Source of the DNA: Aurantibacillus circumpalustris
GTDB lineage: Bacteria; Bacteroidota; Bacteroidia; B-17B0; Aurantibacillaceae
DNA: 64,000 nucleotides
Direction: 5' to 3'
Assembly: GCF_029625215.1 (NCBI RefSeq)
Contig: NZ_CP121197.1
Location: 3,782,001-3,846,000 of the forward strand
The stretch's first letter is position 1; each line of letters starts with the position of its first letter. Shown here piece after piece: positions 3,531-59,013 of this stretch. A model generated the notes under the pieces. It was not told the DNA's origin. It saw only the letters and a list, made by a program, of their open reading frames with translations, and did no database searches. The translations under genes were made by a program, and so were the position numbers.

Positions 3531-3959
3531 TTATTTTTTAATTTTCATAATTTTCGAATAATAAAGCGGGTCACCGTGAAGGGGTTCAATGTCTTTCTTA
3601 AATCTATCAAGCAGTAGGAGTTCCTCAAGCGTAACAGGCGGATAAGCTTTAGCGATCTTTTCCATTAAAGTAATAAAGCTTGTTTTTAAAGAAGGGGTTA
3701 AATAGTGACTGTTCAGCCTGATCTGCTTCATGGCCAAATGATAGGTGTCTTCAACCGAGTTACAGTGATCTTTATCCATTACCTGAAAAATGATCGAAGC
3801 AATATCAAAATTGTAATTTTCATTTTTTAACTCGGCTTCTACTATGTTAAGCAATCTCTGGCGTTCTTCTTTCTGAACTTCACCATCAGCTCTTGCAATT
3901 GCATAAACTATCTGTCCTAATGCATAATGTAAATTTTCTATAGGTCTCAACAAATTCAT
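3531..3959 (-). CDS. TerB-like protein
   Basis: This encodes 142 residues, all-helical by composition. The N-terminal LGQIVYAIARADGEVQKEE matches the typical TerB/TerB-like entry motif (A-x-A-D-G-x-V-x-x-x-E), in which acidic residues form a metal site. TerB-like proteins occur in tellurite and envelope-stress systems; no other ter genes are visible here. It is the first gene of an operon with the UspA gene at 2681-3526. The upstream region is shared with the divergent stress gene at 4120. Confidence 0.7.
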   Translation of the reverse strand: MNLLRPIENLHYALGQIVYAIARADGEVQKEERQRLLNIVEAELKNENYNFDIASIIFQVMDKDHCNSVEDTYHLAMKQIRLNSHYLTPSLKTSFITLMEKIAKAYPPVTLEELLLLDRFKKDIEPLHGDPLYYSKIMKIKK

Positions 3960-4016
3960 AGATCAAAGATGCATTTAGTTGAACTGTAAACCATTGATTT
4001 TACTCACTAAAATTGA

Positions 4017-41689: not shown

Positions 41690-42439
41690 ATGGCACAGCA
41701 AAAAGGTATAATCAAATTAAGAGGAAAGATCGGAGATATTTCTTTTTATAAAACACAAGACGGTCACTTGGCTCGCGAAAAAGGCGGGGTTGACGGTGAC
41801 CGTATTAAAAATGATCCGGCGTTTGTGCGCACACGCGAAAATGGTGCAGAGTTTGGTTCATCCGCTAATTCAGGCAAAGTGCTTAGAGATGCACTTCGAC
41901 CAATGTTAATGAGTGCAGGTGACAATCGGGTAACGGCAAGGTTAACCAAAATCATGACGCAAATTAAGAATCTTGATTCAGTTTCGGTAAGGGGTGGGAG
42001 AACTGTTGGAACGGCGATTGTTAATCCAACTGCACAAGCATTATTGAAAGGGTTTAACTTTAATATTAGAGCCATTCTTGGCGCTGTTTTATTCAAACCC
42101 TATAGTGTGGATTTGGGTACCGGTGCAATTACAATTAAGGGTCTAGTGCCAATAAATGATATTGCTTTCCCATCAGGTGCAACGCATATCACAATTAAAG
42201 GCGCATGGGTTCAAGTTGATTTCGCTACTGGAATTGCAGAAGTTCAAATGTCAAACGTTTCGAACTTACCAATTGATGCTGCATCGAGTAATCTACTTTT
42301 AACTCCTGCTGGTGCGCCAAGTGTGGGTGGAACAAATTTGTACATGTTGCAGATTGAGTTCTTCCAGGAATTGAACGGCGTGCAATACGCTCTTAAAAAC
42401 GGCGCATATAACGCTTTAGCAATTGTTGAGGTAAGCTAG
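41690..42439 (+). CDS. Cassette protein of unknown function (possible phage structural protein)
   Basis: This encodes 249 residues from MAQQKGIIKLRGKIGD (the longer frame from 41642 has a poor-looking leader). The N-terminus GKIGDISFYKTQDGHLAREKGGVDGDRI and KNDPAFVRTRENGAEFG recur in Bacteroidota proteins of this size, similar in style to DUF6266-type proteins. The C-terminal half is beta-rich. There is no signal peptide. It is followed without gap by the DUF5675 gene and three small membrane or acidic frames, so the group is one operon. No function is known to me. Confidence 0.7.
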   Translation: MAQQKGIIKLRGKIGDISFYKTQDGHLAREKGGVDGDRIKNDPAFVRTRENGAEFGSSANSGKVLRDALRPMLMSAGDNRVTARLTKIMTQIKNLDSVSVRGGRTVGTAIVNPTAQALLKGFNFNIRAILGAVLFKPYSVDLGTGAITIKGLVPINDIAFPSGATHITIKGAWVQVDFATGIAEVQMSNVSNLPIDAASSNLLLTPAGAPSVGGTNLYMLQIEFFQELNGVQYALKNGAYNALAIVEVS

Positions 42440-42835
42440 ATGGAACTAGAATTATTACGAGAATATTTTCCGCAGGGTACAAATGGAGAACTACTTCACA
42501 ATGGAGAATCAATTTGTTTTACAATTGAACTGCCATGGAAGAATAATGAGAAAAAAATATCCTGTATCCCTGAAGGAAAATATTCTGTAATAGTTCGTTG
42601 CAACAAAGAATTCGGTTGGCATTTATTAATAACAGGAGTGTTGGACAGAGATGGTATCTTGATACACCCTGCAAATGATGCCTTAAAAGAATTAAAAGGT
42701 TGCATTGCCCCAGTGACAAAGTTAACGAGTGCTGGTTGTGGATCAAGTTCTAAAAAAGCCTTGCAGAAGCTTATTGAAAAAGTGAATGAAGGTATGGAAA
42801 ATGGATCTGTTTATTTAATTATTAAAAAGAAATAA
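42440..42835 (+). CDS. DUF5675 family protein
   Basis: This encodes 131 residues. Its stop-to-start junction with the previous gene has no gap. ICFTIELPWKNNEKKISCIPEGKYSVI, GILIHPANDALKELKGCIAPV and a final strand match DUF5675, found in phages and phage-like elements of Bacteroidota. The H-P-A-N ... GC-I motif recalls L,D-transpeptidase- or YkuD-like active sites, but catalysis is unproven. Holin-like neighbours suggest an envelope or lysis role. Confidence 0.8.
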   Translation: MELELLREYFPQGTNGELLHNGESICFTIELPWKNNEKKISCIPEGKYSVIVRCNKEFGWHLLITGVLDRDGILIHPANDALKELKGCIAPVTKLTSAGCGSSSKKALQKLIEKVNEGMENGSVYLIIKKK

Positions 42836-42836
42836 A

Positions 42837-43046
42837 ATGAATTTGCTTCAAAGAGCACAATCGCCGACACCAAAATTTTTTCGCATCATGCGTGCAGTTG
42901 GATTAAGTCTCGCAGCTGTTGGTGGTACAATAATTTCTGCACCCATTTTATTACCAATTACTGTAATAACAATTGGAGGTTATATGGTTGTTGCAGGAAG
43001 TGTAGCGACAGCAGTAAGTCAATTCGCAGTTAAGAGCGACAAATAA
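42837..43046 (+). CDS. Holin-like small membrane protein
   Basis: This encodes 69 residues, one base after the DUF5675 stop. A basic N-terminus (LLQRAQSPTPKFFRIMRAV) is followed by two hydrophobic helices (about 20-38 and 42-60) separated by a Pro-rich turn. Size and topology suit a class II holin, but no sequence family is recognised. Confidence 0.6.
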   Translation: MNLLQRAQSPTPKFFRIMRAVGLSLAAVGGTIISAPILLPITVITIGGYMVVAGSVATAVSQFAVKSDK

Positions 43047-43113
43047 AAAACAGTGAACAAAACACTATAACATGTTTATTAAAACTTTATATCACTTATT
43101 AAAAATCTTTTTT

Positions 43114-43365
43114 ATGGAAGAAGAAACAAGTTCTATCACAGAGGTAGAAGTAAAAATTAAAGTACGCGATGAAGAAACCGGTGAAATGGTTGAGGCCATC
43201 ACTGCCACATCAAAGTTGACAAAAGCAGATGCAGGGAGAAGCGCTGGTGACAAAACAGAGGATACTATTTACATCAGCATTACTCCGGGATCATTACCGC
43301 ATTATGCAGACGCTGTCATTTCAGCGAATTTCAGTGGGAAACTAACTAAAGCTGACGCAGGATAA
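43114..43365 (+). CDS. Small acidic cassette protein with an internal repeat
   Basis: This encodes 83 residues from MEEETSSITEVEVKIKV (a start at 43072 would add a hydrophobic leader of 14 residues). KLTKADAG occurs twice, once mid-protein and once as the last eight residues. It is beta-rich and acidic. It lies between the two holin-like genes; function unknown. Confidence 0.55.
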   Translation: MEEETSSITEVEVKIKVRDEETGEMVEAITATSKLTKADAGRSAGDKTEDTIYISITPGSLPHYADAVISANFSGKLTKADAG

Positions 43366-43370
43366 TATTT

Positions 43371-43559
43371 ATGTCAACACAAGGTAACATAGCAAACGGA
43401 ACTATTCTGGGCACTGCTTCAGGCACGGCCTTAACCATAGTGGTGAACATAGGTTCATCAGACATCATAAAGACAGTTGTCCTTGCAGCGCTTGGCGCTG
43501 TGGTTAGTTTTAGTATGACTGTGTTATTGAAATGGCTTGGACGAAAGTTTAAAAACTGA
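43371..43559 (+). CDS. Holin-like small membrane protein
   Basis: This encodes 62 residues with two hydrophobic helices (GTALTIVVNIG region and IIKTVVLAALGAVVSFSMTVLL) and a basic tail (KWLGRKFKN). The topology resembles small phage holins. It is the last gene of the cassette, 26 bases before a strong terminator. Confidence 0.6.
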   Translation: MSTQGNIANGTILGTASGTALTIVVNIGSSDIIKTVVLAALGAVVSFSMTVLLKWLGRKFKN

Positions 43560-43584
43560 ACCTCAACTAAAATTTTGTTAAAGT

Positions 43585-43615
43585 AAAGCCGGCCCAATAG
43601 GACCGGCTTTTTTTT
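43585..43615. terminator. Rho-independent terminator, probably bidirectional
   Basis: AAAGCCGG and CCGGCTTT arms with a CC/GG extension enclose the loop AATA, followed by nine T. It ends the plus-strand cassette and overlaps the stop of the convergent gene at 43614. Confidence 0.8.
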
Positions 43616-44039
43616 ATTTGCCGTTAAGATAGCGATTGAACAAAGCTTTACGAAGTTGCATTAATGTGCTTAATTGCTTTTGCAGAGCCGCTTTAGAAAG
43701 CTCAATTTGCTGTAAAGCCTTTTGAATATCTTCAAATTTACGCTCACCTGTATTTACAGAGTTTACACACTCCTCTACCAAATCGATAAAATCATTTATT
43801 CCAATAAACTGAACCACTGAGCCTTTGAGATGCGGAAGGAATAATTGTAACTCCCATAAACCAAGAATTAGAAAATAGTAGAATTCTTTTTCTTCTTCGT
43901 TATCTGCTAAAAACACAAAACAGTTCGACCAATACTCGGGAGCAGGCTTGCCAGAGTGGAAGCCTTTATTTAAAATGAAAAAATGTGGCTGGGTATATTG
44001 CATACCCAGCTTGTGACATTTGATTTTAGTTTTTAACAT
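43614..44039 (-). CDS. Hypothetical protein (DUF6943-like)
   Basis: This encodes 141 residues. The start KIKCHKLGMQYTQPHFFILNKGFHSGKPAPEYWSNCFVF and FYYFLILGLWELQLFLPHLKGSVVQFI resemble DUF6943 proteins carried on Bacteroidota mobile elements; this is assigned from memory. The C-terminal third is a coiled coil. It overlaps the SymE-like gene by 14 bases, so the two are translated together. Confidence 0.65.
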   Translation of the reverse strand: MLKTKIKCHKLGMQYTQPHFFILNKGFHSGKPAPEYWSNCFVFLADNEEEKEFYYFLILGLWELQLFLPHLKGSVVQFIGINDFIDLVEECVNSVNTGERKFEDIQKALQQIELSKAALQKQLSTLMQLRKALFNRYLNGK

Positions 44040-44250
44040 AGGATGTGTTTTTTGGGTTAGCCACGATGAGAATTTTATTTTGCTTGTGTATAATGGTAAC
44101 GGACTGACCAGATAGAAAACCTAACTGTTTTAACCACTTACCCGAAAGGCGTATTTCAGGAACAGAAATATAGTTTAGTTGCCTTTGTTGATGCCTTGAA
44201 GACACTTTTAATTGTTTTTGTTTGTTGGGATTTTTACTTTGATTTGACAT
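44026..44250 (-). CDS. SymE-like type I toxin
   Basis: This encodes 74 residues from MSNQSKNPNKQKQLKV (the frame opens at 44316). VPEIRLSGKWLKQLGFLSGQSVTIIHKQNKILIVA matches the SymE AbrB-like core (IRLxGxWLxxxGFxxGxxV). SymE is an SOS-linked toxin held in check by an antisense RNA in E. coli. No antisense RNA promoter can be pointed out here. Its overlap with the DUF6943-like gene is conserved-looking. Confidence 0.75.
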   Translation of the reverse strand: MSNQSKNPNKQKQLKVSSRHQQRQLNYISVPEIRLSGKWLKQLGFLSGQSVTIIHKQNKILIVANPKNTSYVKN

Positions 44251-44786
44251 ATTATATTGTTTTAAAAGATTACTTGCTAACCTTTTTAACTTTTGAATGT
44301 GTTGCCTTTGATGCAAACCGAGCCTAAAACCCTAATTGAAAACAAAAGAAAAAACACAAAAAAACCGAGCTAAAAACCCGGCAAAAAAATTAAAAAAGAA
44401 AGCATTTATTGTAGGTTGACGACGGCGGTTGGTCAAGGTTTTTGCAAAAAAAATACTACCTGATTGCGGCTAAATAAAAAATAAATACCTTATACTAAGC
44501 CGCAAGCAGTGTGGAGATTTTTTTTGCAAAACAGAGCCTGACCTTGCCAATCCGCCAGGCGGCAACCTTACCTTTGCGACTCTTTTTTTTATTGTAGATG
44601 ATAAATGCTATGAAAATAATTCCACTAGAGGGAGGCTTTGCCAATGTTTTAGAAATACTCAAAAAAACCAAATGTTGTATATTTTCAACAGAATGATTGA
44701 TTTTGTGGATAATACTCAACATTTAAACTATTTGTACTTTGATTTTAATTGATACTTTTAGCGTAACCAATTGTTTAACCCTAATG

Positions 44787-44823
44787 AAAAAGGCTCAGGT
44801 AATTTAGTACCTAAGCCTTTTTT
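44787..44823. terminator. Orphan terminator-like hairpin
   Basis: AAAAAGGCTCAGGTA pairs with TACCTAAGCCTTTTT around a six-base loop, with one C-A mismatch. No obvious gene ends here on either strand. The 44251-46000 gap has no supported coding region. It also contains CCGCCAGGCGG (44552-44562) and the repeat and hairpin cluster listed separately. Confidence 0.55.
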
Positions 44824-44849
44824 ATTTTCTACTTTCAATAATAAACATT

Positions 44850-44946
44850 TATACCATACGCCTGTGGCTGCGGCTATGTTTGACCGGAGGGAGTGCCGCA
44901 CACATTGCAAGGTTTACAGCTTTGCTGTATATCTTGCAGCATTAAG
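44850..44946. repeat. Dispersed hairpin-bearing repeat, copy 2
   Basis: This is related to 30179-30299. It has the same CCTGTGGCTGCGGCTATG, CCGCACACATTGCAAGG and terminal stem, here GCAAGGTTTACAGC (44907-44920) with GCTGTATATCTTGC (44924-44937). It lacks the REP-like insert of copy 1. Confidence 0.6.
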
Positions 44947-45074
44947 CAAACAGAATAGCTGTATAAAATTTTCAATTATTTTCGATTGAAAGTTTTATAG
45001 AGCTATACTGATATAAAAAATACCGCTTCCGAGGACAAGGGCTATGACAAATGTAAGTGCACTGAATTTCGGCT

Positions 45075-45987
45075 CAGCAAAAAGGCTTAACTAAATGTTT
45101 GGATGAACAGCCTTTTTGCTGTTGTGGCGTTGGCTATTTAATATAATACCAATTATGGTAATTTTTAGGGTTAGCATGCTCCGCATACGCGATAGCAAAA
45201 AGGACTATAATTTGTATTATGTTACTTAGCTTCTGCCGAATTTATTTGGCGCGTGTTTTTGGTGTGGGTGGTTTAGCGATTTGCAAATTTTTAATCCTAA
45301 ACATTCAGTTGAAAAATCAACTGACTGCGATATAAGTGTTTGTAAGGATTTCCAAAATTCCATTTAAAATAAATCCTAACAAACACTACATCGGGATTAC
45401 CCGCATTAAGCCAAGCATTTCACCTTTTGCAAAGGCTTCTGCTGGCTAAATGCGGTTAAATTTGCAATTGGCTAATTGTGGGATTGGCAAAAACCGTGAC
45501 AAATAAATTTGACAGCAACGCCACTAGCGCAGTTTGCAAGATGAGAACGGGAACTGCGCAGCCGAATTTGCCAGATGTAAGAGCAGAGACTGAACGGAGT
45601 GCTGCGTTAAGGATCGCAGCGGCTATCCTTTTTGTGCTTCCTAAAATAAGCAAGCACAAAAAGATAATAGCGCAGAGCCTGACCCATGAAGTAGAAAGTA
45701 AAGCAGATAAATAGATAGGTACTTTCTACTTTATGGGTAACGCCCAAAAAATTAATTTGATATTCGGATAAGAACTTGAACTAAATGCATATCGGCAGAA
45801 TATAAGACCGTTTGCTACAAGTTCAAATAGTATGGATAGATTATTACCATTTGTTGGCACTAGCACAAATTGGGTTTCCAATATCGTTTTGCGCATAGAA
45901 GTTGTGCCACTGTCCGCAATGTTATAAATGTACGAATGTCCAACGAGATGTTAAAGAAAAAAGATGCGCGGCATAAGTTCTATGCGC
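45075..45987. repeat. Cluster of long imperfect inverted repeats
   Basis: Stems seen: CAGCAAAAAGGCT/AGCCTTTTTGCTG (45075-45121); CAGTTGA/TCAACTG (45306-45323); a 17-base stem with one mismatch (45335-45351 with 45371-45387); CCGCATTAAGCC/GGCTAAATGCGG around an inner CCTTT/AAAGG (45400-45445); GCTGCG/CGCAGC (45601-45620); CTTTTTGTGCTT/AAGCACAAAAAG (45628-45663); a 19-base stem with one G-T pair (45682-45700 with 45720-45738); an 18-base stem with two mismatches (45891-45908 with 45970-45987). Short open frames across the region are not convincing genes. Confidence 0.65.
45488..45597 (+). repeat. Direct repeat flanking the recombinase segment, left copy
   Basis: CAAAAACCGTGACAAATAAA and the bases after it match 50087 onward with two differences in the first 49 bases. 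The middle has diverged, and CGAATTTG-CAGATGTAA-AGCAGAGA is conserved again near the end. Its partner is 4.6 kb away in the same orientation. Confidence 0.65.
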
Positions 45988-45999
45988 TGTTGGTGGCAG

Positions 46000-46726: not shown

Positions 46727-46829
46727 AACAATATTTCTATGAGTGAGGGATAAATATAAACCCTTGATTATAAACGCATAAATTTCTCAAAACTTGGTAA
46801 CGAAAAGACGAATTATTCGTTATTTAGCT

Positions 46830-47069
46830 ATGGAAACAATTGAGATGAAATTATTAAGCAAGGATATTTTGCATGAGTATGGCTTCAGCGAAAATGAGAT
46901 GAAAACGGATGCTAAAAAAGAAGTATTGACGAGAGATAATTTTGATATTGTATTTAAGGATGGGAATTATTATTATTCTAACCTTGGAATTGACTATCCA
47001 TTGAAGGATCTATCAGCGCTCAGGAAATTTTATAAAGAAGTGAAAAATTGCGAGTTAACTAGCGTATAG
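46830..47069 (+). CDS. Small hypothetical protein
   Basis: This encodes 79 residues from METIEMKLLSKDILHEYGF. The sequence FSENEMKTDAKKEVLTRDNFDIVFKDGNYYYSNLGIDYPL reads as a compact alpha-beta protein of a type seen as 'hypothetical' in Bacteroidota. It is 85 bases upstream of the recombinase pair on the same strand and may belong to the same element. Confidence 0.6.
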   Translation: METIEMKLLSKDILHEYGFSENEMKTDAKKEVLTRDNFDIVFKDGNYYYSNLGIDYPLKDLSALRKFYKEVKNCELTSV

Positions 47070-47154: not shown

Positions 47155-48606
47155 ATGGGTACAAATAATTCTTCAAAACTTAGACCTGGATCAAAAAAAT
47201 CCTGTCAAAGTAAATACAGCCCGGAAACAAGAGTTCAATTTGTTTTTCAATGTTTAAAACCTAAAGGTATTTCCGGAACATCAAAAGCCTGGGGGATTCC
47301 TGGTATGTTTTATTATAACTGGCTGCGTGAAATGATCGCAGGTGCAAAGATTCATTTTGATGCAAGTTATGCTACTTCTAACCATGCTTTGCTAAAAGCG
47401 TTTCGAAAAGATCTTGTAAAGTATCATATCATTAGAAATAAAAAACTTGCCGCGGAAAATGATAGATTAAAGTCTCATATTGCTCTCCTTAAGCCGATAA
47501 AAGGATGGCGAAGATATTCGGATTCTCAAAAAATATCGTTAATAGAAGCTATCAAAAAATTTCCATATTCTCAGGCAATAGCAGAAAGAATTCTTGACGT
47601 GTCAAAAAGTAGCTATGCACTTTGGTGTAGGGAGATTAAAGAAATCAAAAAGGTAAAGAAAGCAAAAAAGGTATATCGAAAATATGAGCAAAAAGTTTAC
47701 ATCGATGCCGTATTTAAACTTCTACATTCACCTCCGAGCAGTCACGGTATAAATAGAACTTCTTGGAACCTGATAGAGCTTAGAGATTGCTTAAAGAAAA
47801 GTGGTATTATCATTAGCGAGACCTACATCGCTAAAATATTGAAGAATGCTGGTTATAAAAGTCGGCTAGCAATGCGTGTGCTTACAAGCCGTGATTTGTT
47901 GTACGACGAAAAGCTCAAAAATATTCAAGGTATTTTAAAAAAACTTAAACCAGATGAGTTGTTTTTTTCAATTGATGAATTTGGCCCTTTTGCTGTCAAA
48001 GACATAAACGGTATGAAATTAAGTCTTAAAAGTGAAAATAGAATTGTTCAACAAATTCAGAAGAGTAAAGGTTGTGTTACCCTTATGGGGGCACTTGAAC
48101 TATCAACAAATCAAATGAGTTGTGTTTTTGGATGGAAACCCGAAACATCCTTAACCCTATCTCTAGTTAATGCTTTGAGAACCAAATACCGAAATTATAA
48201 ACAAATCTATTTAATGTGGGATCATGCCAAATATCATTCTTCAAAAGTACTACTAAAACAAATTGACACGCTAAATTGTGAACCTTCAGGACCAAGATTG
48301 GTGAGGGTAGAGTTACCTGCAGGTGCACAATTTTTGAATGTGATTGAATCTGTTTTTGGAGGCATGTATCGTGCCGTTATACAAAACAGTAATTATGCTA
48401 CACGAGAGCTTTGCATTAAAGCTATGATCCGTCATGTGGAAGAAAGAAATATTTACTACAAAAAAAATCCAAAAAAGGCTGGCAAGAAAATATGGGGTAA
48501 TGAACAAACTTTACCTGTTTTTAAGGCAACTAACAATTGCGTTGAACGAAATTTTACCGCTAGAAGCAGGCCACACTATAAACGTATTAAATCTTTGCAT
48601 GCATAG
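47155..48606 (+). CDS. IS630/Tc1-like DDE recombinase A of a tandem pair
   Basis: This encodes 483 residues from MGTNNSSKLRPGSKKS (the upstream TTG at 47101 is unlikely). N-terminal HTH (GTSKAWGIPGMFYYNWLREMIAGAK, IS3 OrfA-like), a coiled stretch, second HTH (SQAIAERILDVSKSSYALW), a winged-helix part (INRTSWNLIELRDCLKKSG), then the DDE domain: D in FFSIDEFGPFAV, D in LMWDHAKYHSSK, E in FLNVIESVFGGM. All three catalytic positions look intact. Its stop overlaps the start of recombinase B by 8 bases (ATGCATAG). A TTTGAT/ATCAAA inverted repeat (47118-47142) lies before the start. Confidence 0.85.
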   Translation: MGTNNSSKLRPGSKKSCQSKYSPETRVQFVFQCLKPKGISGTSKAWGIPGMFYYNWLREMIAGAKIHFDASYATSNHALLKAFRKDLVKYHIIRNKKLAAENDRLKSHIALLKPIKGWRRYSDSQKISLIEAIKKFPYSQAIAERILDVSKSSYALWCREIKEIKKVKKAKKVYRKYEQKVYIDAVFKLLHSPPSSHGINRTSWNLIELRDCLKKSGIIISETYIAKILKNAGYKSRLAMRVLTSRDLLYDEKLKNIQGILKKLKPDELFFSIDEFGPFAVKDINGMKLSLKSENRIVQQIQKSKGCVTLMGALELSTNQMSCVFGWKPETSLTLSLVNALRTKYRNYKQIYLMWDHAKYHSSKVLLKQIDTLNCEPSGPRLVRVELPAGAQFLNVIESVFGGMYRAVIQNSNYATRELCIKAMIRHVEERNIYYKKNPKKAGKKIWGNEQTLPVFKATNNCVERNFTARSRPHYKRIKSLHA

Positions 48607-49993
48607 CTCTACGATTAATACCGATCAAAGGATAAGAATTGTGCTAAGAGGGCTTAGGCATGGTAATCTTGATGCTCTATGTGCAAAATATAATATATCG
48701 AGACGTACTTATCATAACTGGCAGCTTGCTTTTATCGAAGGTGCAAAAATTCATCTTGGAAATGATTATCTTAATTCAAACGTTACATTTTTAAGATGGT
48801 ATCGAACTAAAGTCTTATCTGAGCAGCTAACAGTTACTCAAAAATTACAAGCAGAAAATTTATTATTGAAAAGATGCCTTGATCTTTGTCTGAAGTGGCC
48901 TAAAAAGAAATCTTATTCATCAGAAGAAAAGATTTTGTTCATTGAACGTATAGAAAGAAGTCCTTTACCTAAGCGTGTGTCAGCAAAAATCCTTGGGATT
49001 ACTTCCAATACCTATCTTACGTGGAAAAAGAAACAACTAAATGGCACACTTGTTGACTACGTTCACCCAAATTTTAAAAGCGATAATGATTTTTACAAAG
49101 ACCGTGTTTTTAAACTTTTGCATGAACCACCTAGTCGGTATAATATTAACCGAACAACTTGGCGATTGAATGACATACACACTACGCTCTTAAACAAAGG
49201 AATACAAATTGGTAAGGGTACCATTATAAAAATAATTAAAAACGCCGGATTTAGGTATAGACGTGCGAAGGTTGTTTTGACAAGTAACGACCCGGAATAC
49301 AAGCAAAAACTATCTGTGTTAAAACGAACATTGTCAAATCTAAAAAATAATGAAGCCTTCTTTTCAATAGATGAGTACGGTCCTCTAATAATAAGAAATC
49401 AAGGTGGTAGAAGCTGGACCCAAAGAAGTGCAAGGAAAACTTATAAAAAAAGACAAAAACCAAGCGGTATTATAATTATGACTGCGGCAATTGAGCTCCG
49501 CAGTAACCAAGTTACGCATTTTTACTCTAAGATTAAGAATACAGACGAGATGATCAAGCTTATCCATATTCTTAGGGAAAAGTACAGCAATATGAAAAAG
49601 TTATATTTAAGTTGGGATGCGGCATCGTGGCATTCTTCAAAAAAATTACACGCAGAAATAAGTAAAATAAATTCTAAAAACGATTTTCCTAAAATTGGAT
49701 TAGTACCTTTACCGGCTCGGGCACCCTTTCTGAATGTTATTGAATCGGTATTTAGCGGCATGTGCAAAGCAATCATTCATCACAGTGATTATCAATCACG
49801 GCAGGAATGTGTAACTGCAATAAATCGCTATTTTAAAAAAAGGAACAGCTATTACCTCGCGCATCCCAAAAAAGTTGGAAAAGAGATTTGGGGTGAAGAG
49901 AATGTTAAGATTAAATTTAACGAAGGCGCAAATTTCAGACCTCATCATTTTATGACAATTCGAGAAAGCACAGCGAAAAATAGAATCAAGTGA
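48599..49993 (+). CDS. IS630/Tc1-like DDE recombinase B of a tandem pair
   Basis: This encodes 464 residues from MHSSTINTDQRIRIVLRG; the open frame to 48434 lies inside gene A and is ignored. It is collinear with A: GAKIHLGNDY, INRTTWRLNDIHTTLLNKG, FFSIDEYGPLII, LSWDAASWHSSK, FLNVIESVFSGM. D, D and E are present. Identity to A is modest, so the duplication is old and both copies have been kept. No clear terminal inverted repeats were found beside the pair. Confidence 0.85.
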   Translation: MHSSTINTDQRIRIVLRGLRHGNLDALCAKYNISRRTYHNWQLAFIEGAKIHLGNDYLNSNVTFLRWYRTKVLSEQLTVTQKLQAENLLLKRCLDLCLKWPKKKSYSSEEKILFIERIERSPLPKRVSAKILGITSNTYLTWKKKQLNGTLVDYVHPNFKSDNDFYKDRVFKLLHEPPSRYNINRTTWRLNDIHTTLLNKGIQIGKGTIIKIIKNAGFRYRRAKVVLTSNDPEYKQKLSVLKRTLSNLKNNEAFFSIDEYGPLIIRNQGGRSWTQRSARKTYKKRQKPSGIIIMTAAIELRSNQVTHFYSKIKNTDEMIKLIHILREKYSNMKKLYLSWDAASWHSSKKLHAEISKINSKNDFPKIGLVPLPARAPFLNVIESVFSGMCKAIIHHSDYQSRQECVTAINRYFKKRNSYYLAHPKKVGKEIWGEENVKIKFNEGANFRPHHFMTIRESTAKNRIK

Positions 49994-50086
49994 AAATAGA
50001 AATTGCAAAAACAACTTAGCTAAGCGACCGAGAAGAATTGTACTTAATTTAGAGATCTGTTTTAATTTTTTGAGTCTTATGGATGA

Positions 50087-50196
50087 CAAAAACCGTGACA
50101 AATAAATTTGGCAGCAAGGCCACTAGCGCAGTTTGTATGATATAAAGAGAAGTGAGCAGGCGAATTTGGCAGATGTAATAGCAGAGACCGAACGGG
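50087..50196 (+). repeat. Direct repeat flanking the recombinase segment, right copy
   Basis: Partner of 45488-45597. The first 49 bases are nearly identical, and the tail CGAATTTGGCAGATGTAATA also matches. It begins 94 bases after recombinase B. The rest of 49994-50529 holds only the weak frame at 50370. Confidence 0.65.
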
Positions 50197-50369
50197 TTAC
50201 CGCGGGATTGAGGTAGCTATCTGCAAAACACTCTCTGACTAACCAACCATGTTGGAGCATTAGTCGCCCTGCATTGTGTTAGTTTGATTTATATCGCTAA
50301 ATTTAAATTCAAAATCTTTAGAGTATAAGGCTAAACGTTATCCTAATTTGGAAAGACTGTGTTATAAAA

Positions 50370-50529: not shown

Positions 50530-51342
50530 ATGACCTGGTCAAAGTCTCACATATCACATCTAAAAAACATAGGGGCAGTTGTCACTGATGAAGGGATCAG
50601 TGTTGAAATATTCGAACTAGATACAGCAAAAATCCCAGCCAAAATATTCTCAGAGTGGGCAAAGCACTTTAGAAATCATTATTGTTCTGACAGCGAAATT
50701 GATCAGCTGCGAAGTGGCACTTCCTTAAGTAGGGCAGAATATTTGGAAAAATTTAAATTTCCTTCAAATGATGGGTTTGGTCCGGGAATAAGGTCTGGAG
50801 ACTTTGCCGAAATATTAGTAGCCGATTATTTGGAATTTGTTTTGGATCATTGGGTGCCAAGGATTAGATATAGCAGAAAAATTGTACAGGATGAGTCGAC
50901 GAAAGGAAGCGATGTAGTGGGTTTTAAGATTTTGGATAGTAAGGAGTCGGTTAAGGACATACTAACGATTTTCGAATCAAAAGCTCAATTTTCCGGCGCT
51001 AAAGCAAAGCCACGCCTTCAAGACGCTATTGACGACTCCATAAAAGATGAGCTTCGAAAAGCGGAGTCGCTTAATGCACTCAAGCAGAGGTTAATTGATC
51101 AGAAAGAAACCTTAGCAGCATTAAAAGTAGAACGATTTCAGGACCCAGCTACGAAACCATATACAGAGCGGTACGGCGCAGCAGCTTTGTTCTGTGAGAC
51201 CGTATACGATGCGACCGAAATCAAAAAATCCCTTGTGAGTAAACATCCTCACCGTAAAGGTTTGAGTTTACTTGTAATTAAGGGTGCCGACTTTATGTCT
51301 TTTGTCCACAAACTATATCAATACGCCGCAAATGAAGCCTAG
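50530..51342 (+). CDS. hamA: Hachiman anti-phage effector nuclease HamA (DUF1837)
   Basis: This encodes 270 residues. SGDFAEILVADYLEFVLDHWVPRIRYSRKI, TKGSDVVGFKI and LTIFESKAQFSG match DUF1837. E94, D128 and E149-S-K151 form the expected PD-(D/E)xK site. Known biology: HamA is held by the helicase HamB and released to degrade DNA when HamB meets aberrant DNA during phage infection. The gene overlaps hamB by 11 bases, as in known hamAB operons. Confidence 0.9.
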   Translation: MTWSKSHISHLKNIGAVVTDEGISVEIFELDTAKIPAKIFSEWAKHFRNHYCSDSEIDQLRSGTSLSRAEYLEKFKFPSNDGFGPGIRSGDFAEILVADYLEFVLDHWVPRIRYSRKIVQDESTKGSDVVGFKILDSKESVKDILTIFESKAQFSGAKAKPRLQDAIDDSIKDELRKAESLNALKQRLIDQKETLAALKVERFQDPATKPYTERYGAAALFCETVYDATEIKKSLVSKHPHRKGLSLLVIKGADFMSFVHKLYQYAANEA

Positions 51343-54300
51343 TGAAAGGTCAACCGAACTCTTAGGAATAACTCGTTCGAGAGCAAAAATGTACGAGTAT
51401 AATATCCCGCTAGAGCACCATATAGCAATGAGAGCTAGTCCGGAAAAGTTATTTTCCGTTACCGTAGGGATGTTAGGTGACTTTGCAAGTAGAAGAAACA
51501 CCCTGCCATCTAACAAAGACTTTAAAGACGACGAGAGCAACCTTTTGTTCTCCGCACAGTTTTTTGACTCTTTTATCGAGGCTAAACTTGGTCAAGATAT
51601 CGATCCATATCTGCTACTACTTGGCGCAGCAACCTATTACCTTTGTGATTTTCCTGGTAGTGCAAGAGTACTTGCAAAGAGAATTGGTAATACCTGTCCT
51701 AATTTTGGTTGCGATGGTCTGGAAGTCCTATTATTTTCCCTTTTGACAAATAGTGATCAATATTTAGACAAAACGTCAGAACTTAACAACCTTTCCCGCT
51801 CATTACTTCGCAACTTGCAGATATTTTATGATCGAGGCATAAATTCTAAAAGGGTGACAAAAATTACCGAGCAAATTAGAACTCTATCTTACAACGAGGG
51901 TAGTCCTCGACAGCTACTTATAGGCGATCTAGTTTCAGCAATTGTTTCGAAAAAGCTGGAAAGGTCCAGTTGGCAAAGTTTACAATCATTTACTGGTATT
52001 AAAATAAGTGCATGGCGTGACATTATCACTAAGGGAAACTTCATTCAAGAATTCTGGCCCGCCCAGATTCTGTTAGGTGAGCGTGGAGTATTTGAGGGTA
52101 AGTCTGCTGTGGTACAAATGCCAACAAGCGCGGGAAAGACTAAGTCAATCGAAATTATCATACGAAGCAGTTTTTTGTCTGGCAGGTCGGAAGTCGCAAT
52201 AGTTGTTGCCCCTTTTAGAGCTCTATGTGCAGAAATACGATTTAATTTAGTCGAAGCATTTTCAGGTGAAGATGTTGACGTCGATTCTCCATCGGACACA
52301 TTTCAAGTTGATTTCGAAGACACCTTCGATACTCAAACGAACAAATTAATCCTCGTTGTTACACCAGAAAAATTGATTTATATGCTTAGGCATTCACCAG
52401 AATTAGCCAGCTCCGTTGGATTATTGATCTACGATGAAGGCCACCAATTCGATACCGGTCATCGCGGTATTACATACGAGCTTCTATTATCGACATTAAA
52501 AAGGATTATTTCGGGAGAAGTGCAGACGATATTAATTTCTGCGGTAATAACCAATGCACAAGATATAGCAAAGTGGCTTGCAGCTGATTGCAAAGTAGTA
52601 GCTGGAGCGCATCTGCATCCGACCTATCGTACCGTGGCATTCACTACCTGGAAAGACAACCGTGGAAGGCTGGATTTCGTAAATCTTTTCGATCCTGAAC
52701 AGTTAGAGTATTACGTTCCTAGAGTATTGGAACAATTCTCATTAGAAAAACTTGGACGAGAGACAAAACCTAGAGTTTTCCCTACAAAATCAAATGGGAA
52801 AGAAATAGCGCTATATCTTGGAATAAAATTAGTGAGAAATGGTGGCGTCGCAATTTTTTGTGGGACAAAGGCAAGCGTGACAGCTATTTGTGAAATAGTC
52901 TCAAACATCTCAAATAGGAATTTCGATATAGAGTATCCAGTTACAACTAGTGATAAAGACGAAATTACGAAATTAAGTTATTTGATCGAACAGCATTTGG
53001 GCGAAGACTCGGTCGCCCGCAAATGCTCTGAATTGGGCATCTATGCTCACAGTGGTAATACCCCACAAGGTTTGCGACTTGCTATAGAGTTCGCAATGCA
53101 AAAAGGCCTAATCAAGTTTGTGATTTGTACATCAACTCTTGCGCAAGGTGTAAACTTGCCAATAAAATATTTGCTAATAACAAGCGTATACCAAGGGCTG
53201 GAGCCAATAGGTACCAGAGACTTCCATAATCTCATTGGCAGAGCGGGTCGCTCAGGTATTCACACAGAGGGTAGCATTATTTTTGCCGACCCTGAGATTT
53301 ATGACAAGAAATCACATTCTTTCCAGAACTACAAATGGCTTGGTGTAAAACGGCTCCTTAATCCAGAAAATTCTAAACCTTGCATAAGTAGTATTTTAGC
53401 GATTTTCGCACCTTTTAAAAGTGATGACACCCAATATGTGATAACAATTGCCCCGTTAGAGTACATCGAGCAATATACTAGTAGCCGGGGAAGCATCCGT
53501 GAGATTGCTATTATAATAGCACAGAGATACGTTCGGCAAGGGTTCTCGCTTGCCAGTCTTAGTCCTCAGCTTGAAAGCCGGCTACAAACTGTTGCAGTCA
53601 TCGAAAGTTATTTAATGGCAAACTCTAAGAACAATTCGGTCTTAGAAGAAAAGGAAATTGAAGACCTTGCCACTAACACATTAGCTTATCACAGTTCGAA
53701 TGAACAAGTTAAGCAACAAATTGTAAAACTGTTTAAAGAGATAGCCAAAAATGTTGATCGATCATTTCCAAGTGCCATTAAGCGTCAAAGGTATGGCAAA
53801 GCTCTTTATGGTGTGCGAGATATGCAGTACATAGAGAGGTGGGTAGTTGAAAACATTACTAGTCTTTTACTAGCCAATACTTCAACAGAAATGTTGTCAG
53901 CCTGCTGGCCTCTTTTACAATCCCAATTGTCACATTCCACTTTTCGTAAAACTGAACCTAAGGCCAATGTTCTAATTTTAGCAACTGATTGGCTAAATGG
54001 TTTTACTTATAACACTATACAAAAAAAACAGCAAGAGTTAAAAACGTATGTCGTCGCTGGATCTCAACGTCGCAAGATTAGTATTGACAAAGTGATCGAA
54101 ATTTGTGATGGAGCGTTTGGATTTGAAGCCATGTTATTGGTTGGTGCAGTGCGCGAAGTTGTTGAAGTTAATTACCCTACCGCTGATATTCAGTTGTTAG
54201 TCAGAAATCTGAATCGGTTTCAAAAACGGTTTAAGTATGGAGTTAAGTCTGAGCTTTCGAATACTTTTTTTGAACTAGGATTTGCTGACAGAGTGATCTG

Positions 54301-54451
54301 CCAGAAGATGGCGGATGTTGATAAAAACCTGAAACGAACTCGAAGGAGGATCATAGACGCATTGTACGAAAATAGCGACTATGAAGAATTGTTGATGACT
54401 TTCCCTTCCTACTACTTGCAGGTTTTTGAAGAAGTCAAGTCGCGATTTTAA
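51332..54451 (+). CDS. hamB: Hachiman helicase HamB
   Basis: This encodes 1039 residues from MKPSERSTELLG; a frame from 51284 only extends into hamA. Walker A variant MPTSAGKT (about 263-270), motif II DEGH in LLIYDEGHQFDTG (about 368-371), motif III-like LISAVITNA, and a C-terminal RecA domain with FVICTSTLAQGVNLPIK and LIGRAGRSG. This is a Ski2-like superfamily 2 DNA helicase. The long C-terminal ~400 residues are all-helical. Full length with no frame damage, so the system may be active. Confidence 0.92.
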   Translation: MKPSERSTELLGITRSRAKMYEYNIPLEHHIAMRASPEKLFSVTVGMLGDFASRRNTLPSNKDFKDDESNLLFSAQFFDSFIEAKLGQDIDPYLLLLGAATYYLCDFPGSARVLAKRIGNTCPNFGCDGLEVLLFSLLTNSDQYLDKTSELNNLSRSLLRNLQIFYDRGINSKRVTKITEQIRTLSYNEGSPRQLLIGDLVSAIVSKKLERSSWQSLQSFTGIKISAWRDIITKGNFIQEFWPAQILLGERGVFEGKSAVVQMPTSAGKTKSIEIIIRSSFLSGRSEVAIVVAPFRALCAEIRFNLVEAFSGEDVDVDSPSDTFQVDFEDTFDTQTNKLILVVTPEKLIYMLRHSPELASSVGLLIYDEGHQFDTGHRGITYELLLSTLKRIISGEVQTILISAVITNAQDIAKWLAADCKVVAGAHLHPTYRTVAFTTWKDNRGRLDFVNLFDPEQLEYYVPRVLEQFSLEKLGRETKPRVFPTKSNGKEIALYLGIKLVRNGGVAIFCGTKASVTAICEIVSNISNRNFDIEYPVTTSDKDEITKLSYLIEQHLGEDSVARKCSELGIYAHSGNTPQGLRLAIEFAMQKGLIKFVICTSTLAQGVNLPIKYLLITSVYQGLEPIGTRDFHNLIGRAGRSGIHTEGSIIFADPEIYDKKSHSFQNYKWLGVKRLLNPENSKPCISSILAIFAPFKSDDTQYVITIAPLEYIEQYTSSRGSIREIAIIIAQRYVRQGFSLASLSPQLESRLQTVAVIESYLMANSKNNSVLEEKEIEDLATNTLAYHSSNEQVKQQIVKLFKEIAKNVDRSFPSAIKRQRYGKALYGVRDMQYIERWVVENITSLLLANTSTEMLSACWPLLQSQLSHSTFRKTEPKANVLILATDWLNGFTYNTIQKKQQELKTYVVAGSQRRKISIDKVIEICDGAFGFEAMLLVGAVREVVEVNYPTADIQLLVRNLNRFQKRFKYGVKSELSNTFFELGFADRVICQKMADVDKNLKRTRRRIIDALYENSDYEELLMTFPSYYLQVFEEVKSRF

Positions 54452-55860: not shown

Positions 55861-58800
55861 TTATGCGATCTCAATCTTATCTATTTCTTTCATTAATGTA
55901 TCTGTTTCAGAAAGAGCGACAATTATTTTTTGGTAGTGCAGGATGTCTTCAAATTCGAGTTTGCGGTCTTTACGGTCTTTGAGCCATTTTTGTGCGGGTT
56001 GATAGCCGCCAATGTAAAACTCCCATGCGACTTGAGGTACGTTTGCAAAATATTGAGTGGCATTTATGTAAACGTTGGCATCCTGGTATTTTGGTTTGAT
56101 AACTATGTTATCACCATCTACTGGATATTTTGTGATGTACTTTTCAACCGTTGGACTTTCTAATAAATGTATTTGGCGTATTTCGCCTCCCAATTTAACG
56201 AGCTGCCAAAAGGTATCTTTGTCTTTTGGATAAGGTACTCTTGGAAAATCGATTTTTAAAAACTCTTTGTATTTCTCGCGATACGTTGGAGAATGTAAAA
56301 TGGCGTAGATGTAGTCTAAAATGTCAATAGGCGCAAAAGTATTTTTGGTTTTTTCTTTTTCGTTTGTAAAAGTTAAACTTAATTTCTCTGCGATTTGATG
56401 TACAATTTCTGAATTTAGATTTGGTGTTCTTTCCGATGTTTGGCCAATTGTTTGTTGACCTTTGGTATCTGGGTATACGTATAATGGAAATATTGGTGCA
56501 CTGCCAAATTTTTTAGCTGTGCTAGTTAAGTTACAATCTGTAGGGTGTTTTGAAATGAAAACATGCTTGAAATTATCCGACACTTGCCTTGGAACAAGTA
56601 GACCTATGTTGTGTTCTAACATATTTCGCATTGTTTCAAACGCAGGGCGTCTTTGAAGTTTGGTGTCGTAGTAGCTAGTAACCGTATCAAAAGGACGATA
56701 TGAAACAAGAGTGAGTTTGTTTTGGCTAAATTCCGCTGCTTTAAATTTATCTAAGAATTTAAAACTGACTGTATTAGTAATCTCGAACTGCTTTATCGTA
56801 GAATCCTTATTTTCAAAGGCGGTTTTCAAATTTTTTATTAGGTTTTCTTTTGAGCTATTGTAAAAGAAGGTGTCCTTTCCTGTTTCAATTCCATTGTTAT
56901 ACTTGGGAAGAATTTGGTCAATTTTAAAACCTAATTTGTATTCTGCATTACCTTTAAAATCTTTTTTTACAAAGAAATAGTTTGGCGGAGTATATTCTAA
57001 ATTATTCCAATTTATACTTGCCAAAGTATTTCCATTTAGGAAGTCATACTTATATTCACGCTTACCCTGTAAATCCATATGAAGTATATTTCCTAACTCA
57101 CTTTTAGTTTTCCGCCCAGTTTTTACAAAGATGTTTATTGAAACACCTTGCATTATGTCAAAGACATTTTGGTCTGCTGAACCATCAGGACTGACTTCTT
57201 GTTTTTTTGCGTCACCATGCAAATCCAATATATAGATCGTATCAAAGCACTCCAACAGATATTTTCTCATTTGGCGAAAAACTATACCATCAATAAAACT
57301 ATTGTTTGAGATATATGCTAAAATACCACTTCCATTTTTTTCAATAAAATGCTGTCCATATCTGATAAATTTCACATAGTCATCAGAAAGTGAATTGTAA
57401 CTTTTTTCAACCAAATCCTTTTTGTAGTCGGAGATCAACTTTTCAATCCATTCATTTTTATTTGTACTACTTACAGCATATGGAGGATTTCCAATTACAC
57501 ACATTACCGGAGTATCACGCTTGATTTGGTTGGCTTCATTTGCTTCATCGCTTAACCAATTTGCAAAGAGAGTGCCTGTATCTGGATGATGTTCTTCCAG
57601 ACTATTTGTGAGATAGACTCTGAACCTTTGTTCTTTAGTTGGCTTATATCCCGTTTCGGTCAAAAGTAAATCTAACTGAAGGTGCGCCATGGCATACGAT
57701 GCCATTAATAATTCGAAACCATTTAAACGCGGCAATAAATGCGTTTCCACGTAATTAGACCAGATCCCTTTTTGGGATTCAAACTTTTTGTGAACGTGTT
57801 TTACCACCTCAGCTAAAAAAGTACCAGTACCAGTTGCAGGGTCAAGTATTTGTACTTTGTGAACTTCCTGTTCTATAATTTCTTCCTTAGCTACCGATCT
57901 TCTGTCTGCAGTTGTTTTTGTAAATACTTTTGTTTTTATTTTCGTTTTACTATTGTCAGCAAGTCCATTCGGTAAATTAAATTCTGTTTTTAAAATATCA
58001 TCTACTGCCCGAACTATAAAATTCACAACTGGTGCAGGGGTGTACCAAACGCCTCTTGCTTTTCTTAATCTAGGATCGTATTCACTTAGAAATGTTTCGT
58101 AAAAATGGATGATAGGATCTTCCATTTTTGTTGTTTTGCCGTAGTTCTTTAAAATTTCTTCCACATTGCATGCCAAGAATATTTCTACCAAGCTATCTAC
58201 AATCCATTTGATTCGGTCGTCAATATCAGGACCAGCAATGTAACCAAAGAGTTTACGTAGAAAAGGATTTGATTTAGGAATTAACTCAGCAGCCTCTTGT
58301 CTGCTAAAGGTTGGTAAAGTAGGATCGTGTAAACGGGCAGCAAACATTCCATAGGCAATAGTCTGAGCATATACATCCGCAAAACCTTTTGGTGTAATGT
58401 CGTGAATCAGAATTTCTTTAAAAGCTTTCATCTGATCTTTAAGGGTACTGTCTTCTTGTTTTGTTTCGTCGCTAGTAAGTGCTTTCTCAATTACTTCGGA
58501 TAATAACCTTGCTTTGCCAGCCATCATTTCAGCGAGTTTTTTTGGACTCTTGATTGTTTGGCCAACATGAATGCAGAAATCTTTTAAAAGATTGGTGAAG
58601 GTTTCAAAATTATCAGGCAGTGGTTTTATCCCTTTCTCAGTGAGCTCAGCAATTGCAATTTTTGTAATGAATTGTCCGTCGCGGTATAAATGAAAATCAA
58701 GGTAATCGGTAAAGATGAGGTTGTTGAGTGAGCCTTTGTAGCGATCGAATTGTTCTTTGTTGCCTGTTTTTTTTGAGCCCTCTAGATCTTTGTCTCCAAT

Positions 58801-59013
58801 ATCTTTCGCTTCGATAAAACCAACTGGTATATCTTTTTTAGTGAGAATGTAATCCGGTGCGCCGCAAGATTGGCGTTTGGGTTCGTTTGTTGCGCGAATG
58901 TCGGGAACCAGGCTTTCTATTAATTGCTGCAAGTCGCCCCGAAAGGTGTGTTCGGTGGCATTGCCTAGTTTATAACGCTGATTGATATTATCGATGTACT
59001 GTTGGGTTGTCAT
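55861..59013 (-). CDS. Type IIG/ISP-like restriction-modification enzyme
   Basis: This encodes 1050 residues in one chain. N-terminal nuclease with P53-D54 and E68-A-K70 (GAPDYIL, GFIEAKD); a helical connector with ARGVWYTPAPVVNFIVRAVDD; N6-adenine methyltransferase core with motif I LDPATGTGTFL (391-400) and motif IV NPPY (509-512); and a C-terminal target-recognition region of the type ISP C-domain kind. The translocase helicase of true type ISP enzymes is missing, so a type IIG-like enzyme is likelier. Recognition sequence unknown. Confidence 0.88.
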   Translation of the reverse strand: MTTQQYIDNINQRYKLGNATEHTFRGDLQQLIESLVPDIRATNEPKRQSCGAPDYILTKKDIPVGFIEAKDIGDKDLEGSKKTGNKEQFDRYKGSLNNLIFTDYLDFHLYRDGQFITKIAIAELTEKGIKPLPDNFETFTNLLKDFCIHVGQTIKSPKKLAEMMAGKARLLSEVIEKALTSDETKQEDSTLKDQMKAFKEILIHDITPKGFADVYAQTIAYGMFAARLHDPTLPTFSRQEAAELIPKSNPFLRKLFGYIAGPDIDDRIKWIVDSLVEIFLACNVEEILKNYGKTTKMEDPIIHFYETFLSEYDPRLRKARGVWYTPAPVVNFIVRAVDDILKTEFNLPNGLADNSKTKIKTKVFTKTTADRRSVAKEEIIEQEVHKVQILDPATGTGTFLAEVVKHVHKKFESQKGIWSNYVETHLLPRLNGFELLMASYAMAHLQLDLLLTETGYKPTKEQRFRVYLTNSLEEHHPDTGTLFANWLSDEANEANQIKRDTPVMCVIGNPPYAVSSTNKNEWIEKLISDYKKDLVEKSYNSLSDDYVKFIRYGQHFIEKNGSGILAYISNNSFIDGIVFRQMRKYLLECFDTIYILDLHGDAKKQEVSPDGSADQNVFDIMQGVSINIFVKTGRKTKSELGNILHMDLQGKREYKYDFLNGNTLASINWNNLEYTPPNYFFVKKDFKGNAEYKLGFKIDQILPKYNNGIETGKDTFFYNSSKENLIKNLKTAFENKDSTIKQFEITNTVSFKFLDKFKAAEFSQNKLTLVSYRPFDTVTSYYDTKLQRRPAFETMRNMLEHNIGLLVPRQVSDNFKHVFISKHPTDCNLTSTAKKFGSAPIFPLYVYPDTKGQQTIGQTSERTPNLNSEIVHQIAEKLSLTFTNEKEKTKNTFAPIDILDYIYAILHSPTYREKYKEFLKIDFPRVPYPKDKDTFWQLVKLGGEIRQIHLLESPTVEKYITKYPVDGDNIVIKPKYQDANVYINATQYFANVPQVAWEFYIGGYQPAQKWLKDRKDRKLEFEDILHYQKIIVALSETDTLMKEIDKIEIA

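Follow-up and report, generated by a model that had tools for sequence, protein, structure and literature searches.

Two overlapping, diverged IS630-type DDE protein genes in Aurantibacillus circumpalustris and the large, rare subfamily to which they belong

Introduction

IS630 elements usually carry one transposase gene, and the general view of mariner/IS630-type DDE transposases is that they act as assemblies of identical subunits. In contrast to this usual layout, the stretch of DNA analyzed here (64,000 nucleotides of the A. circumpalustris genome, hereafter the window) harbors a unit of two complete overlapping genes, A and B, both encoding proteins of this family. The locus raises the question of how the two genes came to lie together and whether their products work together. 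An earlier note on this DNA had taken the preserved catalytic sites of both proteins as an argument for selection on a heteromeric enzyme, and had suggested that the locus may be a new transposon or programmed-rearrangement system. A diverged pair of coupled subunits, if real, would allow one to test which subunit binds, which one cuts and why the second was kept.

Results

Two intact members of one DDE subfamily

The unit consists of the following features.

47155..48606, + strand: gene A, a derived IS630-type DDE protein (P0001), 483 aa, from the ATG at 47155 to the stop codon at 48606
48599..49993, + strand: gene B, 464 aa, from the ATG at 48599 to the stop codon at 49993, encoding a canonical IS630-type DDE protein (P0002) that belongs to the subfamily of A
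48599..48606, + strand: overlap of A and B, the 8 bases ATGCATAG, which hold the start codon of B and the stop codon of A

The description of these genes as two intact, collinear IS630-type proteins of 483 and 464 residues sharing 8 bases held up in the reading frames, the domain matches and the alignment. The two proteins aligned collinearly with 165 of 457 positions identical (36%, E=9e-92), and a random-frame estimate put the probability of a 464-codon open frame arising by chance at such base composition at p ~6e-17. A longer start for B is also open (ATG at 48434, giving 519 aa), and alignment with the relative L005/L013 favored the start at 48599. Both proteins matched Pfam DDE_3 above its cut-off (A, E=8e-7; B, E=1e-10). 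With the NCBIfam IS630 model, which has a cut-off of 100 bits, B passed at 102.6 and A missed at 82. The two helix-turn-helix (HTH) regions that the earlier note had assigned to each protein were recovered in part: HTH_Tnp_1 matched A at residues 119-180 above the Pfam cut-off, while in B both HTH_Tnp_1 (102-150) and HTH_23 (8-45) fell under it, and the first HTH of A had no Pfam match and was modeled with low confidence. The genome is a single contig of 4.6 Mb, in which A and B were the sole matches to either protein at E<=1e-3; the IS630 model, searched at E<=1e-10, likewise picked out these two alone. Given their overlap, the two cistrons could be translationally coupled.

AlphaFold2 returned mean pLDDT values of 73.8 for A and 79.1 for B. 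In both models the catalytic core was mostly above 80, with its strands and helices in the order seen in RNase H-like cores, and the N-terminal part of A, up to about residue 120, was poorly modeled. Foldseek searches with the model of A placed Mos1 at the top (E=1.5e-6, with low whole-chain TM-scores of 0.28/0.37) and also returned the catalytic domains of Sleeping Beauty and Metnase (TM-scores by target of 0.53 and 0.57, respectively). A sequence search of the PDB with B at E<=1 returned no relative.

Catalytic residues and constraint

Alignment placed the catalytic residues as follows.

47974..47976, + strand: first Asp codon of A, D274, in SIDEFGP
48220..48222, + strand: second Asp codon of A, D356, in MWDHAKYH (SWDAASWH in the family)
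48346..48348, + strand: Glu codon of A, E398, in FLNVIES
49370..49372, + strand: first Asp codon of B, D258
49616..49618, + strand: second Asp codon of B, D340
49742..49744, + strand: Glu codon of B, E382

The D-D-E triads of both proteins fell in invariant columns of the 42-row alignments. Identity between A and B at the three codon positions was 0.52/0.58/0.41, and the same codon was used at 67 of 161 identical residues, a fraction of 0.42 against the 0.43 expected from codon usage alone, so that synonymous sites look saturated while the protein is conserved. Together with the 36% identity, these data bear out the claim of an old divergence with kept triads. A 50-nt stretch in which the two genes are 80% identical (47310-47359 and 48709-48758, inside the N-terminal segment found only in this pair) was considered and set aside as evidence; it uses the same codon at 8 of 11 identical residues, against 0.42-0.43 overall, and these numbers are too small.

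The divergence is asymmetric, with B canonical and A derived. We defined 83 core positions that were at least 95% invariant across 84 other members, after dropping L057 and the distant L011; these 84 were drawn mainly from the nearest relatives of B retained by the scan described below and thus appear more uniform than the family at large. B kept 79 of the 83 residues, A kept 65 (the triad included), and every other member kept at least 92.7%. In A the 18 losses are concentrated near the second Asp and on the strand and helix that precede it (HFYS..K...EM). Mariner transposases have D-N-A-R-P-H at the second Asp, and by that comparison the D-H-A-K-Y-H of A need not be dead. Since A keeps only 65 of the 83, the odds that all three triad residues would be retained by chance are about even, which makes the triad weak evidence in the argument from kept catalytic sites to selection. 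Stronger evidence that A may be in use comes from its 483-codon open frame combined with the conservation of codon positions 1 and 2 over position 3.

An N-terminal segment common to A and B

One segment of each protein bears on the origin of the pair.

47275..47508, + strand: N-terminal segment of A, aa 41-118, for which a search at E<=0.1 of the window ORFs and those of L001-L092 gave B as the one match
48674..48907, + strand: N-terminal segment of B, aa 26-103, which matched A and otherwise a short opposite-strand ORF of L029 (E=0.008)

These segments matched each other at E values of 4e-7 and 5e-7, and the N-termini of A and B were mutually best matches (8e-15 and 2e-15, with the next best at 3.5e-6). 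Trees were less decided. In a quick tree of 88 rows, A fell in a 24-row fork that did not include B (SH-aLRT 82). In a more careful tree of 42 rows, neither A nor B was firmly placed; their branches were long, at 2.62 for A and 1.73 for B where the median was 0.42, and a clade of A plus B was not rejected (p-AU 0.339). Because the N-terminal segment is common to A and B and was not found in the other members examined, the sequences favor a tandem duplication, which would have been followed by long divergence.

A large subfamily of mostly single genes

We scanned 84,980 species genomes by pattern, an approach blind to members without the two peptide patterns used. The scan gave 186 relatives, and the best 80 of the 186 loci were analyzed. 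Further members came from viral contigs (1), plasmids (4) and the genome sets sampled; phages yielded no relative of B. Across its best segment, each of the best 80 of the 186 showed 38-55% identity to B. Each locus was screened for additional members by profile at E<=1e-5, bearing in mind that many loci are short contigs on which neighbors may be missed. A second complete member was present in 1 of the 80 loci (L024) and a partial one in another (L047); L017 and L022 were single genes with a broken frame.

In the genomes examined, homologues are mainly single genes, the very finding that the earlier note had said would refute its reading. Exactly one match to B at 1e-20 was found in 73 of the 78 genomes carrying the 80 loci (47/50 and 26/28). 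The remainder carried three copies (G481) or two (G491, G494, G903 and G909), and the two copies in G494 sit in identical 13-kb stretches. By comparison, the general IS630 model, run on 28 genomes (27 of those above and the window's own), gave between 1 and 33 matches in each, many of them fragments and the subfamily member included. These large IS630-like proteins form a rare subfamily.

The search for adjacent A-B pairs that the earlier note had proposed came back empty: the pair was absent from 86 other genomes of the order (which here equals the family), from the 391 other phylum genomes and 394 other class genomes sampled, and from the loci of the best 80 of 186 relatives. The order, phylum and class samples gave lone members only (G066, G040, G133, G530 and G677, with that of G570 split across two contigs), and the A-B pair was seen in one genome. 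Nor was a conserved partner gene found among 751 neighboring ORFs, where the largest cluster occurred in 5 of 87 records; this analysis left out L001-L005, which overlap with the window or L013, and L057, which is identical to L055.

The second complete tandem pair, in a Syntrophobacterales MAG (L024:1976-5534), has an operon-like layout. Its genes are separated by a gap of 46 bases, from a stop codon ending at 3916 to a GTG at 3963 with AAGGAG ahead of it. The partners are 47% identical over 357 aa, belong to different subclades and are not orthologues of A and B, indicating that pairs can arise from different subclades; the same genome carries a third, separate member. At L047:4090-7554, a partial and a full copy lie in tandem and are 90% identical, and the duplicated stretch includes the neighboring gene, which we take to resemble yraN.

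A nearly identical tract with a single member adjoining accC was found in two species (L149:7859-9846 and L150). The family genes of G530 and G677 differ by 1 base over 518 codons, against pS values of 0.18-0.34 in five surrounding genes (accC and four others; accB was left out for its length difference), and the xre-like gene beside the family member was also low at 0.025. We discarded this comparison as a test of selection, for a tract recently exchanged between species is silent on old selection. A short gene that by eye resembles an XRE-type regulator stands beside the member in G677, G530 and G570 (L149:9964-10691, L152:1432-2180). Around the two genes the surroundings in G570 otherwise differ, and the XRE-like gene may travel with the family member.

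Element ends

Terminal repeats were sought with ungapped scans and with gapped scans assessed by shuffles, and neither kind gave a convincing result for A-B. The wide-window gapped scan detected no inverted repeats around A (p 0.89), B (p 0.72) or both (p 0.19), in a weak test by which 1 of 8 IS630 controls reached p<=0.01. Among these ordinary plasmid IS630 controls it was L165 that did so, and L164 and L167 had similar CTAGTG-type arms by eye; the low pass rate, despite such visible arms, marks the test as weak. By the same low-power scan, 0 of 75 relatives reached p<=0.01. A narrow window gave 7 of 79 relatives at p<=0.05, versus about 4 by chance. The best candidates came from ungapped scans: L025 has 27-base arms (25/27 identical), one lying 576 bases ahead of the open frame and the other 287 bases behind it, the arm itself being near-palindromic, and L062 has arms matching at 16 of 17 positions. 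L026 and L027 are 99% identical over 2.0 kb in different contexts, with sharp boundaries and no clear inverted repeat. L149 and L151 are 97% identical over 274 bp and diverge no more than 11 bases past the stop codon, from which the ends of the element may be close to the stop codons. No related genome was found with both genes as one clean insertion at an otherwise empty site, where a TA target-site duplication, a mark of IS630 elements, would show.

Genomic surroundings

Two copies of a dispersed repeat, R, bracket the A-B block in direct orientation.

45485..45606, + strand: left copy of R, running into a Flavo-1 RNA match at 45602-45688
50084..50204, + strand: right, partial copy of R, direct orientation, 113 bp at 86.7% to the left copy

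Two more copies of R occur elsewhere in the genome without A-B. Flavo-1 is a computationally inferred motif, widespread in Flavobacteriaceae and reported to offer no clues to function (PMC9723704; PMC2864571). With other copies lacking A-B and the Flavo-1 motif itself dispersed, we rejected R as the first choice for an element boundary, a role it might still have, and the left copy is probably not part of the A-B block.

The left flank (41729-45755), which includes DUF5675, DUF6943 and SymE-like genes, copies at 84-92% a region that lies at 2.04 Mb in the same genome. Partial copies of two more short repeats, at 45290-45462 and 45880-45992, are numerous in genomes belonging to the genus. Directly upstream of A is a small ORF (46811-47048) of which a 79% copy lies at 3.857 Mb and fragments occur in further species of the genus. 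Downstream of A-B lies a Hachiman pair, HamA-HamB (50530-54451), and beyond it a type IIG/ISP restriction gene (55861-59013). No family among the PADLOC models matched A or B at E<=0.001.

Discussion

Our leading, still tentative, explanation is that A and B are old tandem duplicates, B doing the cutting as the standard subunit and A serving as a specialized partner produced through coupled translation. The ancestor would have been a single-gene, low-copy element of a large DDE subfamily of IS630 type (ITm superfamily) that duplicated in tandem, the duplicate being kept as two overlapping cistrons whose translation is probably coupled. The two proteins would be made together and would bind DNA through their N-terminal HTH regions. 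B would serve as the DDE subunit that cleaves strands, and A would join the synaptic complex of B either to modulate it or to bind ends as a second subunit, and would not be an independent transposase. We infer this cooperation; the relatives examined, nearly all single genes, presumably work alone if active, which counts against it. Also against the explanation are that no tree joins A and B, that no orthologous pair turned up in the other genomes sampled and that the low-power scans above found no termini. The L024 locus cuts both ways, being a second two-gene arrangement but one with partners of different subclades.

The main rival, somewhat less likely, is a plain tandem duplication without cooperation, with B as an ordinary enzyme and A as a redundant copy that either drifts or persists only through its coupling to B. 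The solitary state of most subfamily members fits this reading, as do the tandem at L047, within a stretch that takes in a duplicated neighbor, and the loss in A of invariant residues near the second Asp. Set against it, A has suffered no stop or frameshift despite its great divergence, and its triad is complete.

An obligate heteromeric transposase, with two diverged, translationally coupled IS630-type subunits that both bear triads and act on non-classical ends, would be a DDE counterpart of the RIT elements compared below; we consider it unlikely.

It is improbable that two related single-gene elements inserted independently end to end. The L024 partners, which come from different subclades and lie 46 bases apart, would suit such an origin, as would ends close to the stop codons and the quick tree that parts A from B. 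The N-terminal segment common to A and B and unseen in the other members examined argues against it. The weak test above found no inverted repeats for A, B or both, and so no sign of the two separate insertions with individual terminal repeats that the earlier note had named as a refutation of its reading.

Equally doubtful, or slightly more so, is a domesticated pair with a host role, for example in the adjoining defense island. The pair is alone in its genome, has no visible ends, belongs to a nearly single-copy family and neighbors HamA, HamB and the type IIG enzyme. Yet neither protein matched a PADLOC model, the neighborhoods of relatives are not conserved, and the scatter of the family over phyla fits mobility. 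Finally, two overlapping frames in one direction might recall the two-frame insertion sequences, in which one transposase is split by a frameshift, but both proteins have a full DDE domain and an N-terminus of their own, and the 457-aa alignment refutes this reading.

Whatever the role of A, the subfamily stands out as unusual, being both large and rare, almost always single-copy in the genomes examined and with no ends found. It is relevant to the way in which single-copy DDE genes spread between phyla.

Comparison with known systems

Among the matches listed in searches of the open-access literature, there was no report of paired IS630-type transposases. A-B resembles IS630 (ITm superfamily) in its DDE_3 domains, its NCBIfam IS630 match (below cut-off for A), its triad motifs and the Mos1/Sleeping Beauty-like fold predicted for A. 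It differs in its extra N-terminal region, its two complete overlapping genes, the lack of further copies in the genome and, by a weak test, the lack of detectable terminal inverted repeats. The single-gene members of the subfamily (among L006-L010 and L012-L092) have the core in common with A-B; unlike A-B, they occur singly in most genomes, and none was found to have the A41-118/B26-103 segment. The L024 pair is alike in comprising two complete members in an operon-like arrangement, and unlike in having a gap instead of an overlap and partners of different subclades.

RIT elements (recombinases in trio) consist of three adjacent paralogous tyrosine recombinases with ORF overlaps of four to eight bp; each gene has a possible catalytic motif, and trios are reported from several taxa, some genomes carrying identical copies (PMC3414803). 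A-B is similar in having overlapping paralogous recombinase genes (8-base overlap, 36% identity). It differs in having two genes with DDE domains where RIT has three tyrosine recombinases, and the A-B gene set does not recur in the other genomes sampled whereas RIT trios do. The closest known systems are thus RIT elements in layout and IS630 in chemistry.
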